Both the position numbers and the translations under genes were made by a program. A DNA stretch of 64,000 nt from Bartonella quintana (lineage in GTDB: Bacteria; Pseudomonadota; Alphaproteobacteria; Rhizobiales; Rhizobiaceae). Numbering within the stretch: the stretch's first letter is position 1; each line of letters starts with the position of its first letter. The notes beneath the pieces were generated by a model that ran no database searches, was not told where the DNA came from, and was given only the letters and a program-made list of their open reading frames with translations. The stretch covers positions 1,116,001 through 1,180,000 of the forward strand of contig NZ_AP019773.1 of assembly GCF_009936175.1 (NCBI RefSeq). The letters are read 5' to 3'. Shown piece by piece: positions 52,089-57,414 of this stretch.

Positions 52089-52709
52089 ATGGGACGCACA
52101 CTTGTATTAATCCGTCATGGACAAAGTGAATGGAATATCAAAAATCTTTTTACCGGTTGGAAAGACCCCGGTTTGACAGAAAAAGGCCATGCAGAAGCAA
52201 TAACAGCAGGAAAAAATCTCAAAGCAGCTGGTTTAAAATTTGATATTGCTTATACATCTGCCTTACAGCGTGCACAAAAAACAGCTCAGCACATTTTAAA
52301 ACAAATGGGACAATCAGATTTGCCATTGATAAAAAACTCGGCATTGAATGAACGTGATTATGGTGATCTCTCTGGGCTAAATAAAGATGAAGTACGTCAA
52401 CAATGGGGAGAACAACAAGTGCAAATATGGCGTCGCTCCTACGCTGTTGCGCCCCCTAATGGAGAAAGCCTACGCGATACTGGTGCACGTGTTTGGCCCT
52501 ACTATCTTTACCATATTCAACCTCATATTTTGCGTTCTCAAACTGTTTTGATTGCAGCACATGGTAATTCTCTTCGTGCTCTTATTATGGCACTTGAAGG
52601 TCTAAATAGTGAAGAAATTATATCTCAAGAATTAACAACTGGCATTCCTCTTATTTATACATTTAATTCCGATTCAACAATTTCATCAAAGACCATTATC
52701 ACACCCTAA
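52089..52709 (+). CDS. gpmA: 2,3-bisphosphoglycerate-dependent phosphoglycerate mutase
   Basis: Glycolytic enzyme interconverting 3- and 2-phosphoglycerate via a phosphohistidine. The 206-residue protein has the catalytic '[10 protein letters not shown]' (H10 is phosphorylated), '[18 protein letters not shown]' (about 87-104) and '[18 protein letters not shown]' (about 157-174) with the second catalytic His. It is shorter than the approximately 250-residue Escherichia coli enzyme, as is usual for the alphaproteobacterial short form, which lacks a C-terminal segment. TAGGAA precedes the ATG. Confidence 0.95.
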
Positions 52710-52783
52710 ATTTCTAAAAACGTAGTGGACACAAGGAGTTCAATCCAATAGTTTTAAGCTGAAGAATAAATTCTATAATTTTA

Positions 52784-52812
52784 TTGACAGAGCTGCTTCT
52801 CAAGCTTAGATC
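52784..52812 (+). promoter_or_regulatory. Candidate promoter of tRNA-Leu
   Basis: Perfect TTGACA at 52784-52789, 17-nt spacer, weak TAGATC at 52807-52812. It would initiate about 7 nt before the tRNA. Confidence 0.4.
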
Positions 52813-52825
52813 AATTGAATTTTAA

Positions 52826-52910
52826 GCCCAGATGGCGGAATTGGTAGACGCGCAGGTTTCAGGTACCTGTGCCGTAAGGCGTGGAGGTTCGAGTCCTCTT
52901 TTGGGCACCA
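52826..52910 (+). tRNA. tRNA-Leu (CAG)
   Basis: Class II tRNA with acceptor GCCCAGA paired to TTTGGGC (one G-T/A-T end), anticodon stem CAGGT/ACCTG and loop TTCAGGT giving anticodon CAG, a variable arm TGCCGTAAGGCGT, T arm GGAGG-TTCGAGT-CCTCT, discriminator A and encoded CCA. Confidence 0.93.
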
Positions 52911-53674
52911 TGTTCTTTTTTATGTATAACTTATTGATTTTATATATCTTTCTTAAGGTGAGAGATGCGTAAATAAAGGCTCAGGAATAGAATTTTCTAA
53001 CATACCTTTATAGTCTATTTTAAATCAAGACTGCTTTTCGAGCTATTTTTTTTAGCCACTCTAAACATCCAAAGTGTTTGCACTTTAAAAAATCAAAACT
53101 TTTGAAACTCTCTTGTAGCACATCACAAGCCTTACGACTCAAAACAAACATGCCTTGGATCTCTTTGAAAATGTATGCCATTTTAACAAAATCGTAAGAA
53201 GCAATTTAACTTTCTGGCAATCATTGTTTAATCCAATAGAGTTGCATCTTAAACAATAAGAAAACTACTGTTCAAAATTTATCCTGCAAGAGATGTGCTT
53301 TAAACACGTTAAATTCGTCACCCACGCAAATAAAACTTAATGGCAAAATTCGACAGCAAATCGATATCTCCAATATGAGAGAAATATCAAAACGATCCAG
53401 TGAATACTTCCGGGGCACATCATTTGAATTTTATGAGAGTTAACCAACTAAGCACCATAGAAGATAAGCCTACCAAAAACAAATTTCACTGATTCTTTTA
53501 ATACAAAAAATAATCTTTAACGTAGAATATTTTCTTTGTTCTAAAATTGTCTTCATGAATTTTTTTTATAAAAATATTCACTTTACATCATAAAAGTGCA
53601 TTTCCAGTATTATTTTTGCCATAGGCTTTCTCTTCTGTCACAGACGTAGCAAATAGCGAAAACATAGAGACTGT
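52911..53674. other. Gap between tRNA-Leu and the microcin C-like locus
   Basis: AT-rich, without coding features. It should contain the promoter of the mccA-like gene; a TTTACA near 53580 and a TATTAT near 53608 are too far apart (20 nt) to call. No att-like repeat of the tRNA 3' end is seen. Confidence 0.4.
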
Positions 53675-53680
53675 GAGGGG
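53675..53680 (+). promoter_or_regulatory. Strong Shine-Dalgarno of the mccA-like gene
   Basis: GAGGGG, ending 4 nt before the ATG at 53685. One of the best ribosome-binding sites in the window, and it supports translation of an eight-codon frame that would otherwise be ignored. Confidence 0.6.
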
Positions 53681-53684
53681 TGTT

Positions 53685-53708
53685 ATGGATCATATAGGTT
53701 TTAACTGA
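53685..53708 (+). CDS. mccA: MccA-like heptapeptide precursor, MDHIGFN
   Basis: Eight-codon gene (ATG to TGA) encoding the heptapeptide MDHIGFN. It is intact and preceded by GAGGGG. Precursors of microcin C (Escherichia coli MRTGNAN) are also seven residues with a C-terminal Asn, which MccB converts to an AMP phosphoramidate of aspartate; the peptide is a Trojan-horse carrier whose processed form inhibits aspartyl-tRNA synthetase. Here the residues differ but length, N-terminal Met and terminal Asn match. A hairpin and an mccB relic follow. Whether it is transcribed is unknown; without a working MccB no antibiotic can form. A chance frame is the alternative, but the combined context makes that unlikely. 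Confidence 0.72.
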   Translation: MDHIGFN

Positions 53709-53720
53709 TAATGAAGAATT

Positions 53721-53751
53721 CTTTTCCCTGAAATTGCTTTTCAGGGAAAAG
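53721..53751 (+). terminator. Hairpin between mccA and mccB
   Basis: Perfect 13-bp inverted repeat, arms CTTTTCCCTGAAA (53721-53733) and TTTCAGGGAAAAG (53739-53751), 5-nt loop, followed by TTGATTTG. It starts 13 nt after the mccA-like stop. In Escherichia coli an attenuating terminator sits at the same place and lets the precursor transcript greatly exceed that of mccB. The same use is inferred here. Confidence 0.75.
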
Positions 53752-53780
53752 TTGATTTGATCAGTCAGTGTAGAAGAACA

Positions 53781-54839
53781 ATGGAATAGCAATATATTTT
53801 GGGAAAATACACCCGTGTTCTCATTCGTAAAAATGATGTGATTTTTGATGCGGGCGTAAAGCAGTTTATTATCAATGATCGAATACATTGGGAGACTTTG
53901 GTCCTTATCGCAGCACAGTGGATCGAGAAAAAGGCGCTAGAAGAAGCTTATAATCGCTACCGTCAACTATGCTAAAAGAAGACTTTAACTATGCGTTTGA
54001 CTTTTTTTCTAATCACTTTCTTGTTTTAACCGAAACATAGGACAATATCCTCAATGATCGATATTTCAGAAGTCATCTCCATTATCAAAGTTATGGTATG
54101 GAGCCTGAAGCCGTTCAGCATACCCTTTCACAAAAAAGTAGTAGTCATTTTAGGATGTGGCGGAATTGGTAATCATTTGTCAGCGATACTCGCATCCTCT
54201 GGCATAGGGAAATTAATTCTTGGTCTACAATGATGTAATCGAGATGACAAACCTTACCATACCAATCCTTTTTACTGAACAAGATGTAGGAGCTACTTAA
54301 AACAACCATTCTTCGGCGTAAATTGATACGGAGAAACAGTGAAAGTGAAATGAGTGAATTACAAAATGTCGGTTACTACCAAAGAAGATACAACAAATTG
54401 CTCAAAGCCGATTTGTGAATCATTTCTGCGGATTCACCTAAGCAGCTGCTGATACCATGGATAAACAAATGGTGTGTAAAAAATAAACAAGCCTATATAA
54501 ATTCCGGCCATGTCAATGATATCGCTGTCTTCAGTTCCTTTTATATCCCTAGGCAAACTAGGCTATGCATGCAGCACATCCGTAGGATATCTCTCTAAAA
54601 AAGCGATCATTTCATTTACGAAGCCTGAGCTGCTATCAATAAATAACTTCAAAGTTGCAACATTTCCTCCTGTGAACACTCTTTCAGCGTCCATGTCTGC
54701 CAATGATGCCCTTAAATTTTTAGGTGGTTATGGCAATCTGCTTTTCACTGACCGCCATGTGGGTATATAAAGTAGCAAACTTTTCATGGAATAGCGTTCT
54801 TTAAAAAAGAATCCTCGCTGTAAAGTCTGTAGAACATAA
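53781..54839 (+). pseudogene. mccB: MccB-like peptide adenylyltransferase, degraded
   Basis: Remnant of the ThiF/E1-fold enzyme that attaches AMP to the C-terminal Asn of the microcin C precursor. The frame begins ATG-GAA-TAG, a stop at codon 3, then 'QYILGKYTRVLIRKNDVIF' (peptide-clamp domain, like 'YILGRYVKI' of E. coli MccB). Next, in shifting frames: 'HLHYQSYGMEPEAVQ', the ATP-binding 'VVILGCGGIGNHLSAILA' with 'SSGIGKLIL', 'DVIEMTNLT' and 'LFTEQDVGAT', then 'SADSPKQLL', 'INKWCVKNKQAYINSGHVND', 'VATFPPVNTLSASM' and 'ALKFLGGYGN', and C-terminal zinc-site remains 'NPRCKVC'. The first CxxC has lost a Cys ('GYACS'). At least five stops or frameshifts. Confidence 0.9.
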
Positions 54840-54841
54840 CA

Positions 54842-55700
54842 ATGAACAAACCACGCACTCTCGCTCTCACTTATGGAGCTTATATGTGCAGTACAGATGC
54901 TGATTGGTGTTTATTTACTATGCAATTTTTTTTTAATGTCTATAGAATTAGCCTGGAAAAATTGGCTCTTGCTTCAAATCGCCTTTTCATTCACCATCCT
55001 GCTTCTTGATTTTCTCTGTGCTATTCTGTCTGACAGATATCGGCGTAAATACTCTTTTATGGCTAGCGTCTTTATGATAGGAAAGTTTTATCTTCTATGC
55101 CTTCAAACCACCCAATATAACGATACTTAATTATTGCTTATTGCACAAATTCTCTATGCAAATGAGAACTTTCCTCATTGTGAACGCCATCGTGGATGGA
55201 TTTATCATTCTCTAGGCAATAAACAGAATCGCTTTTTGCATTATGCACATTTCTATCACCAGATAAATTCTTTCAGTAGCATTATAAGCGGTATTGTAGG
55301 AATTGGTTAGAATACAATTCAACCTTAGAATGTAAAAAGAATATCTCTCAAGAAACAGAGTGTCCCATTGAGACAAGAAAAGACATAAAGAAATATTATC
55401 AATAATGGAATCATGGATTTATGAAAATGTTTGGATTAACGTTCTTTTGTACATGAGCTTGCATTATGATGCTGCTGTTTGAAGCAGCTGGAAAGATGTA
55501 ACAGATCATATCATTCACTTAAAACAGAAAAGAGCCAATTTAAAACAGATGTTTTTCTGCCAATTTTTCTAAACTAGCAGAAAAACGTGCTGCTATGCAG
55601 GCGCTACGGTTTCGCAAATGAAAACACTCTTTGGCTGCATCAAAGACAGCAGGGTATTGTTTTATACCCAAACAGTTGATAAAAACGACTAACAATAGGA
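54842..55700 (+). pseudogene. mccC: MccC-like MFS export pump, degraded
   Basis: Relic of a major-facilitator transporter directly following mccB, in the place of the microcin C exporter MccC. ATG at 54842 reads 'MNKPRTLALTYGAYMC', then a frame change leads to hydrophobic helices ('LLLQIAFSFTILLLDFLC') and the MFS loop motif 'SDRYRRKYS' (related to GxxxDRxGRR). Further fragments are 'IYHSLGNKQNRFLHYAHFY' and 'NSFSSIISGIVGIG'. After about 55300 only scattered pieces remain, such as 'AEKRAAMQALRFRK'. It is shorter than the about 400-residue family length. The 3' limit is approximate. Confidence 0.75.
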
Positions 55701-55800
55701 GCAATCAAAAAAATTTCAAAAAAGTTAGGGATAGATAGAAAAATAACCTAAAGAAATCAAAATTCCCGAACTTTTATACAAGTTATTTTTTTACTGAAAA

Positions 55801-55891
55801 TGGCGGAGAGGAAGAGATTCGAACTCTCGAGAGCCTTTTGAGCCCTACTCCCTTAGCAGGGGAGCGCCTTCGACCACTCGGCCACCTCTCC
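55801..55891 (-). tRNA. tRNA-Ser (GCT)
   Basis: Class II tRNA on the minus strand: acceptor GGAGAGG/CCTCTCC, anticodon stem-loop CTCCC-CTGCTAA-GGGAG (anticodon GCT), a long variable arm with GGCTC...GAGAG-type pairing, T loop TTCGAAT, discriminator G and encoded CCA. Confidence 0.92.
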
Positions 55892-56208
55892 AAGGGCGGT
55901 GAATAAACGGTCTCAACATAAAGTTCAAGTCATTTTCGATTTTTTTTAAAAATATCTGAGATTTTTCTTTTTCATTGATCCAATCAGATAAAAAATTAAC
56001 AAATGAAAAATTATGATTTTTTCATCACATTTCCCTGAATAGTAGTATAAATATCCTTTAAAAAGACAATTTGGTATTTGTATATTTAAAAAAGAACAGT
56101 ATGGCTAGAATCATAAGTATCATGTATTTCACTCTTTCCTGTCTGTAATGAGTTGAGTAAATAATGTTCCCTAAGAGGGATAAATTATCTTTTCACTGGA
56201 GATCGATT
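55892..56208. other. Upstream region of the porin
   Basis: AT-rich region holding the porin promoter and leader; no unambiguous hexamers. GGAG lies 8 nt before the chosen start codon. An in-frame upstream ATG at 56164 lacks a site and would bury the signal peptide. Confidence 0.45.
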
Positions 56209-57414
56209 ATGAACGTTAAGTCCATCTTTTTAAGCTCTACAGTAGCTTTTTTAGCAATTTCTGAAACACAAGCAGCTTCAAAAGCGGTTGCAGAACCAGA
56301 ACCTGTGAAATATGTTCGCGTTTGCGATGCATATGGCAAAGGATATTTTTATATCCCTGGCACAGAAACCTGTATCCGTGTTTCAGGAAATATCCGTGCT
56401 GATTTTCTAGGTGGTGATAATATCGATGCAACAACCAATAGCCAATTAACTAATAAAAAGAAAACCTATGGCGCATCATCACGGCTAACCCTAGTTTTCC
56501 AAGCTGCTTCTGAAACAGAAATGGGAACACTTCGTTCATATGCACGGATCTTCTCAAGCTGGAGTAATGGTAAAGACAAAGATGGTGCAAAACTCGCGGC
56601 TGCCTACATTGAACTTGGTGGTTTTCGTATAGGTCTTGACGATACAATTTTTAACAGTTGGACTGGAGGTTATGGAAATGTTATCAATGATGACAGCATA
56701 GCACCAGCAGGCAATATACGCACCAATTTTATTTCTTATACCTTTAGTGGTGATACTGGATTCTCGGCTATCATTGGAGCTGAATTAGGCAATGCCACAG
56801 GTCCCGATACTAAAGACATTAAATACTATTACATCGATAAAGATGGTAAAATTGCTAACGTTTCTAACGATAGCCTTCCAAGTAAAGGGATAAAAAATTA
56901 CACTCCCAATCTGGTTTTTGGTGTAAAATTTATGCAACAATGGGGTGGCTTTTCAACAGTTGCTGCATATGATGCTTACTACAAAAAATGGGCTGGTAAA
57001 GCACGTTTAGATTTTAATATCAATGATCGTGTAAACCTATGGGTAATGGGTGGTTATAAAAATAACGTTGATTACTACACAGCAGACGAAGACAATACAC
57101 TATCACGACAAAATACAACGATTTACGCAAACTGGGGCAGCAAATGGGCTGCTTGGGCTGGTACAACTTATAAACTCAATCAAAAAGTAAATTTGAACGC
57201 TCAAGTTTCTTATAGTGCTGCCAAGACCTTTGCAACTTCTGTAAATATTGCATACACGCCGATTCCAGGCTTCATAATTACACCTGAATTGACTTATATC
57301 TCTTGGAAAGATAATCGCACTTTCAGAGGCGTGGACAATAATACAATATATAGTCATGCTTTGAATGGAAAAAGTGCCTTGCAAGGTATGATCCGCTTCC
57401 AGCGTTCATTTTAA
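56209..57414 (+). CDS. Omp2b/Omp43-type outer-membrane porin
   Basis: Trimeric general-diffusion porin of the Rhizobiales porin family, 401 residues. A signal peptide ends near 'SETQAASKA' (cleavage about 22). The mature N-terminus has the family block 'PVKYVRVCDAYGKGYFYIPG' followed by 'TETCIRVSGNIRADF', including the conserved Cys pair. Alternating amphipathic strands continue to the terminal phenylalanine ('MIRFQRSF'), needed for BAM-dependent insertion. A variable segment ('DTKDIKYYYIDKDGKIANVS', about 205-224) may be an exposed loop. In Bartonella, Omp43 homologues bind host cells; that role is inferred. Confidence 0.92.
   Translation: MNVKSIFLSSTVAFLAISETQAASKAVAEPEPVKYVRVCDAYGKGYFYIPGTETCIRVSGNIRADFLGGDNIDATTNSQLTNKKKTYGASSRLTLVFQAASETEMGTLRSYARIFSSWSNGKDKDGAKLAAAYIELGGFRIGLDDTIFNSWTGGYGNVINDDSIAPAGNIRTNFISYTFSGDTGFSAIIGAELGNATGPDTKDIKYYYIDKDGKIANVSNDSLPSKGIKNYTPNLVFGVKFMQQWGGFSTVAAYDAYYKKWAGKARLDFNINDRVNLWVMGGYKNNVDYYTADEDNTLSRQNTTIYANWGSKWAAWAGTTYKLNQKVNLNAQVSYSAAKTFATSVNIAYTPIPGFIITPELTYISWKDNRTFRGVDNNTIYSHALNGKSALQGMIRFQRSF

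Follow-up and report, generated by a model that had tools for sequence, protein, structure and literature searches.

The stretch of DNA analysed here, referred to as the window, comprises 64,000 nucleotides (bases 1,116,001-1,180,000) of a Bartonella quintana genome that consists of a single contig of 1,588,683 bases. Comparison with other Bartonella genomes, which carry the labels G000 to G094 (G000 being the window genome), confirms a decayed mccABC operon of the microcin C type at positions 53685-55310 of the window, an operon that in several relatives stands at the place of the genes for the importer YejBEF. The frame of the precursor gene mccA, its ribosome-binding site and a 13-bp hairpin have survived in the window, and mccB and mccC are wrecked. 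That the locus is no chance arrangement follows from its alignment, at 72-78% along some 1.6 kb, with nine genomes, all of them Bartonella, out of 60 others that were searched. A sequence-only reading had seen in it the relic of a microcin C-like locus, which our results support; neither of the findings that it had named beforehand as speaking against such a relic, a closer match of mccB to MoeB/ThiF and the lack of an MDHIGFN-type frame ahead of intact orthologues, was obtained.

The window copy of mccA (53685-53708, on the forward strand like the whole operon) is intact and reads ATG GAT CAT ATA GGT TTT AAC TGA, seven residues and a stop. The eight-codon MDHIGFN frame with a strong ribosome-binding site, which had been described from the letters alone, is thus present, the site being the purine-rich GAGGGG at 53675-53680; similar purine runs precede most of the frames found in relatives. 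Also present is the perfect 13-bp hairpin described between mccA and mccB (53721-53751), a terminator-like structure whose arms (53721-53733 and 53739-53751) are 100% complementary and enclose a loop of 5 nt. Positions 53700-53765 fold with a z-score of -5.07, a stability that none of 200 shuffles equalled, and both-sided changes at six of the 13 pairs over 11 chosen loci (reached by none of 500 shuffles) indicate covariation. Two observations count against the hairpin: longer stretches of four relatives fold unremarkably (z -1.87 to 0.93), and G020, G024, G077 and G079 have a weak or interrupted stem. The intact start codon, terminal Asn, stop codon, ribosome-binding site and hairpin of the window could suggest that this segment is still selected, as a small RNA or a free peptide, after the death of mccB and mccC. 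Conserved columns, however, are altered in one of 29 cases in the mccA and hairpin region and in 80 of 934 in mccB and mccC (p 0.50, with mccA bounds that are off by one base), so that survival fits chance; we rejected continued selection on mccA and regard it as very improbable.

The mccB pseudogene (53781-54842), derived from an E1-like peptide adenylyltransferase gene, matches an intact relative across residues 1-354 and contains 14 in-frame stops. Its piece with the motif LGCGGIGNH, from which a frameshifted MccB homologue had been proposed, is identical to an intact relative at 27 of 29 residues, which bears the proposal out. An early stop of the window gene (53787-53789) falls on the same codon as the sole stop in mccB of G024. 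Alternatively, mccB could descend from a household MoeB/ThiF gene, with the short frame ahead of it arising by chance. MccB does fall in the ThiF family of Pfam, and its NCBIfam matches, all under cut-off, are of ThiF, MoeB, E1 or more distant type. Yet the best match of the intact MccB of G028 (Ca. B. washoeensis Sb944nv) among solved structures is MccB itself (3h5n, E 1.7e-106, residues 3-353 and thus over its full length), far ahead of ThiF (1.9e-19) and MoeB (2.9e-16); moreover, the window genome has a separate MoeB-like gene, and the short precursor frame is conserved across relatives. We therefore rejected a MoeB/ThiF relic and give it next to no credence.

The mccC pseudogene (54842-55310) retains only the 5' part of an MFS exporter gene, recognisable from residue ~16 to 150 of 411. 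The sequence-only reading had placed an MFS exporter in the MccC position, and this holds up to ~55310 and fails beyond it. The adjoining segment at approximately 55417-55725 (forward strand), for which an exporter identity was rejected, matches the C-terminal half of a tyrosine recombinase (integrase), whose intact homologue belongs to Phage_integrase, and is no part of mcc.

We searched 71 Bartonella genomes for mccB and mccC. By our tally, 37 of them contain a locus or a large remnant of one or both genes, and all of these lie in one clade of 41 genomes. This clade was taken from an rpoBC tree of 60 genomes, several nodes of which are weakly supported; 11 of the 30 genomes counted as outside are absent from the tree and were assigned because they have no mcc locus and because their importer gene, if one was found, is similar to the gene of the three outgroup genomes that the tree includes. 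Short mccC-like remnants occur besides in G076, inside the clade (39 residues), and in G065, just outside it. Alignment to Bartonella genomes, which had been proposed as a check, did find intact orthologues: mccA, mccB and mccC are all intact in G028, G061, G086 (Bartonella sp. ML69XJBT), G013 and G032 (B. queenslandensis), and the MFS exporter MccC lies downstream of mccB in the genus. The mcc operons of Bartonella were reportedly treated by Bantysh in 2014. Microcin production is described as inactivated in B. quintana and B. henselae in a passage citing Severinov 2007. The sequence-only reading regarded the mcc family as not new to the genus; as this inactivation is already in print for both species, the B. 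quintana relic as such is not new.

An MDH-type precursor frame occurs in 14 of 36 mcc loci, and six of the seven genomes with an intact mccB have an MDH...N heptapeptide frame upstream of it. The precursors ending in Asn are MDHIGFN (window, G028, G061 and G024), MDHRGFN (G020), MDHIFCN (G086), MDHMGCN (G013), MDHLECN (G032), MDHSECN (G080) and MDHTECN (G073). Those without a terminal Asn, MDHTECNE (G027), MDHTGCNE (G077), MDHPKFK (G079) and MDHPEFH (G071), all stand before a broken mccB; the same holds for MHHRGL of G026. The exception is G070, in which the altered frame MDYRNYNA stands ahead of intact mccB and mccC.

The named relatives recovered by the MccB search were Bartonella in 14 of 14 loci. 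In a search across the order at E 1e-45, only one of 397 genomes, an even draw from a larger group, was positive, namely that of the window. With no other MccB among these genomes, Bartonella probably acquired the mcc operon from outside its order. A search of plasmid DNA with the window locus gave no match; at the protein level, the nearest plasmid relatives of MccB and MccC of G028 (46% and 45% identical) are found in Escherichia coli and Salmonella.

In the importer-bearing genomes that we compared, a cytidylyltransferase gene, a cytochrome c-like gene, yejB, yejE and yejF follow each other in this order, and beyond yejF lie a MoeB-like gene on the opposite strand and then a glutathione synthetase gene. 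Thirteen loci at this yej site (G028, G020, G061, G086, G069, G002, G087, G094, G077, G036, G026, G066b and G010) have a different order: cytochrome c-like gene, mcc operon or remnant, tail of yejF, MoeB-like gene. Only an mccC remnant is left in G010. As this gene order shows, mccABC or its remains physically replaces yejB, yejE and most of yejF at this second site. The yejF tail is present in all 13 loci, where it starts between residues 397 and 421 (it is interrupted by ~0.7 kb in G069, G036 and G002), and the stretch from mccC to the yejF tail can be aligned in all of them. With this common junction, the 13 loci look like the product of a single replacement event that was inherited or spread. 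The yej-site copies group in the mccC tree, with the tRNA-site trio G013, G024 and G091 among them, and G066 carries mcc at both sites.

The tRNA site is the one occupied in the window, and two of the five genomes with all genes intact, G013 and G032, have the operon there instead of at the yej site. The yej genes are broken in different ways in five tRNA-site genomes: in G013, a deletion extends from within yejB to ~residue 446 of yejF, and the yejF remnants start at ~352 in G027 and G019, at ~230-250 in G032 and at ~472 in G029. Both flanks of the window locus given in the sequence-only reading were recovered. The left flank of the insertion site is tRNA-Leu(CAG) (52826-52910, forward strand), which also lies to the left of the locus in some relatives, and the right flank is tRNA-Ser(GCT) (55801-55891, reverse strand); the flanking frames further out are a gpmA-like gene (52089-52709) and a porin-like gene (56164-57414), both names being our own. 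The integrase whose remnant lies next to mccC is repeated across the genus. Its remnant in the window faces the 3' end of tRNA-Ser(GCT), and an open integrase frame of 346-389 residues is found in five of the six related loci with frames inspected, the sixth being partly masked. The tRNA site looks like the scar of an island; no convincing attachment-site repeat was found within 52700-56200, where only short, chance-like repeats occur.

The fate of the importer itself was followed with E. coli YejB as a query against all 71 genomes. Outside the clade, YejB is full-length and open in 27 of 30 genomes, partial in G025 and a pseudogene in G063, and no match was found in G012, a genome that is 86% complete. 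Inside the clade, YejB is intact in three of 41 genomes (G070, G071 and G079), pseudogenes in place were found in the window genome and in G034, and the remaining 36 genomes have only YejB paralogues of 27-29% identity. All three clade genomes that bear YejB have a precursor without a terminal Asn (MDYRNYNA, MDHPEFH and MDHPKFK). YejB of G070 exceeds the NCBIfam cut-off for the permease of the microcin C transporter; for its YejE and YejF, microcin C transporter families are also the best match, yet with scores under the cut-off. In the window genome, yejB, yejE and yejF have all decayed in place, outside the window (G000:C1:286983-290700, L177). The YejA/YepA-like binding protein, which is encoded elsewhere, has matches in 30 of 30 outside genomes, that of G063 being a remnant. 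Within the clade it is intact in four of 41 genomes (G070, G071, G079 and G034) and a remnant in G066; for the 36 others, among them the window genome, no match reached E 1e-10.

The genomes were also searched for the immunity genes mccF and mccE, as had been suggested. An MccF-type S66 peptidase was found in none of 11 genomes, and none of the 38 mcc loci (stretches of 5 to 7.3 kb) contains mccD, mccE or mccF. An MccE-like protein, full-length or nearly so, is encoded in two of eight genomes, G028 and G086, away from the intact mccABC. In both, this open MccE-like gene lies with remnants of an apparently second, different mcc-type cluster (G086, L198:4777-8546; G028, L197:7602-10201), to which a broken MccD-like gene is added in G086. 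In G024 (L201:3697-8528), distant MccB-like and MFS genes (~30% each) lie close together near an MccD-like fragment, and such distant MccB-like and MFS matches are near each other in some other genomes too.

The exporter gene has a history of its own. While mccB is open in seven genomes, mccC is open in 21; an open mccC without an intact mccB was found in 15 genomes, and the reverse in one (G020; sign test p 5e-4, with kinship ignored and lists that are our own tallies). Among the 15, mccB of G024 has one early stop, and in G035 and G072 the mccB search gave nothing past a household paralogue. Pairwise ratios of nonsynonymous to synonymous substitutions (dN/dS) of mccC range from 0.03 to 0.21 among 14 of the 15 genomes (G072 left out). 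In G001, G019, G088, G092 and G093, the values are 0.06-0.11 for mccC versus 0.57-0.94 for the mccB remnants of the same pairs. The mccB remnants of these five genomes and of G017 have several insertions and deletions in common and so go back to a single dead allele. Of these six genomes only G017 has a broken mccC; in the other five the gene is open. As mccC looks constrained, the exporter was apparently retained when the enzyme had died. Two observations complicate this picture: the tree places G032, whose three mcc genes are all intact, among these species, and mccC of G001 is nearer to that of G027 and G080 (synonymous divergence, dS, ~0.095) than to that of G019 (0.44). From these sequences, mcc alleles have probably been exchanged between species. 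In G029, G073, G077 and G079, mccC breaks at one shared T-rich stretch near residue 28.

MccC could persist in the species with a dead mccB as a general drug or peptide exporter rather than for immunity to the microcin, which would agree with the 15 genomes in which mccC is open and mccB not intact, with the low dN/dS in five of them and with the lack of YejB in all 15. On the other hand, we know of no alternative substrate of MccC, and neighbours still making the compound could sustain selection through another uptake route. A general exporter is a tentative possibility, to which we assign somewhat less than even chances.

Judging from the intact relatives and from E. coli, MccB would modify the terminal Asn of a formyl-heptapeptide with a nucleotide and MccC would export the modified peptide; sensitive cells would import the compound through YejBEF and be killed at their aspartyl-tRNA synthetase. 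We infer from the relatives that the strain of the window, too, formerly produced the compound. As no MccF was found in the 11 genomes searched for it, producers would be protected mainly by the missing importer, together with export through MccC, rather than by MccF. Insertion into yejBEF could then have conferred protection in one step, and the toxin may have been lost wherever the importer was retained. We consider this explanation as a whole, a dead mcc operon in the window and relatives that protected themselves mainly by importer loss, to be well favoured by the comparison.

The competing explanation is that importer loss had nothing to do with mcc, YejBEF-YepA having been lost in a host niche that made muropeptide recycling superfluous and mccABC having landed in a dead, dispensable locus. 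It can point to the 38 of 41 clade genomes that lack an intact YejB irrespective of their mcc state, four of which (G011, G023, G067 and G076) have no clear mcc locus, and to G065, in which the short decayed mccC-like remnant is accompanied by an intact YejB. YejBEF is, moreover, a general importer of peptides and muropeptides according to the available text of PMC9790009. By a rough estimate, however, chance would hardly have directed the operon to the importer genes when it had ~1,500 genes to land on. Among the 30 outside genomes there is only one YejB pseudogene besides the partial and the unmatched case, the losses inside have several distinct break points, and the yej pseudogenes of the window genome and G034 are still recognisable in genomes with mcc relics. 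A plain Dollo count on the tree gives 11 YejB losses inside the clade. As several nodes of the tree are weakly supported, we took six as a cautious count: the yej-site replacement (taken as a single event with later spread), the G013 trio, the G067-G072 clade, G029, the window genome and G034. Outside, one loss was counted (G063). With exposures of 0.634 substitutions per site inside and 2.095 outside, the loss rate differs at p 9e-4 for six losses and p 1e-6 for 11. Niche-driven loss independent of mcc appears rather unlikely to us.

Protection by importer loss nevertheless faces several objections. If the whole length of the clade is taken as exposure, the loss-rate test weakens to p 0.06 (six losses) and p 0.003 (11), and the count of six is our own. 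YejB is missing in six of six genomes with intact mccA and mccB, the producer type, which is expected by chance within the clade (p 0.61) because YejB is rare there; mutual exclusion of toxin and importer, taken within the clade only, was accordingly rejected as not significant. The clade is a single lineage, so that another shared trait could explain the importer loss. The MccE-like proteins of G028 and G086 make another protection possible there, and importer loss may not be the sole one in these two genomes. Conservation of mccC where toxin and importer are both gone is something that simple immunity does not need.

The Bartonella operons resemble the E. coli plasmid operon mccABCDEF (microcin C7/C51) in the order mccA-mccB-mccC, in a heptapeptide precursor ending in Asn and in the hairpin between mccA and mccB, and the comparison with E. 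coli drawn in the sequence-only reading proved apt. The consulted part of PMC6495379 describes for E. coli a seven-residue precursor and a terminator hairpin in the mccA-mccB interval, defines precursor genes as short, usually of seven residues, ending in Asn and preceded by a strong ribosome-binding site, and attributes microcin C uptake to a Yej transporter. In E. coli the plasmid operon continues with genes for a methyltransferase, a GNAT acetyltransferase and an S66 peptidase, which we read as mccD, mccE and mccF; unlike it, the Bartonella stretches have none of the three, and the copy in the window is dead. The operon mccABC is regarded as a minimal pathway in PMC12250964, the main text of which, as available, does not name Bartonella. 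The transporter encoded at the replaced site is the YejBEF-YepA of Rhizobiales, which, according to PMC9790009, imports muropeptides in Agrobacterium; the same source reports that YepA is widespread in Rhizobiales and lists B. henselae with YepA only. The mcc-bearing clade has mostly lost both YejB and the YejA/YepA-like protein. No report of a yejBEF replacement or of exporter retention in Bartonella was found in the accessible portion of the open-licence literature, and as far as these searches show, the position of mccABC in place of yejBEF at the second site and the pattern of importer loss are new.

The relic alone offers a closer view of something already known in the genus, and the comparison across the genus adds more. 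It suggests how a Trojan-horse antibiotic may be carried without MccF-type immunity, namely by landing on the very genes that serve its own import. We see even odds that the replacement was self-immunising in a wider sense, that is, that one recombination gave both antibiotic and resistance and that the allele then spread among Bartonella species, causing YejBEF-YepA to be lost time and again and leaving a graded series behind. If so, this series would run from importer-less producers through exporter-only lineages to dead loci such as that of the window, where toxin and importer have both decayed, and the loss of YejBEF-YepA would have taken muropeptide import with it across the clade. The comparison also points to one possible reason why muropeptide import was lost in many Bartonella, and the question whether YejBEF-YepA fell victim to antibiotic warfare or to the host niche becomes testable. 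For bacteriocin ecology, Bartonella species with their differing combinations of toxin, exporter and importer provide a natural series.
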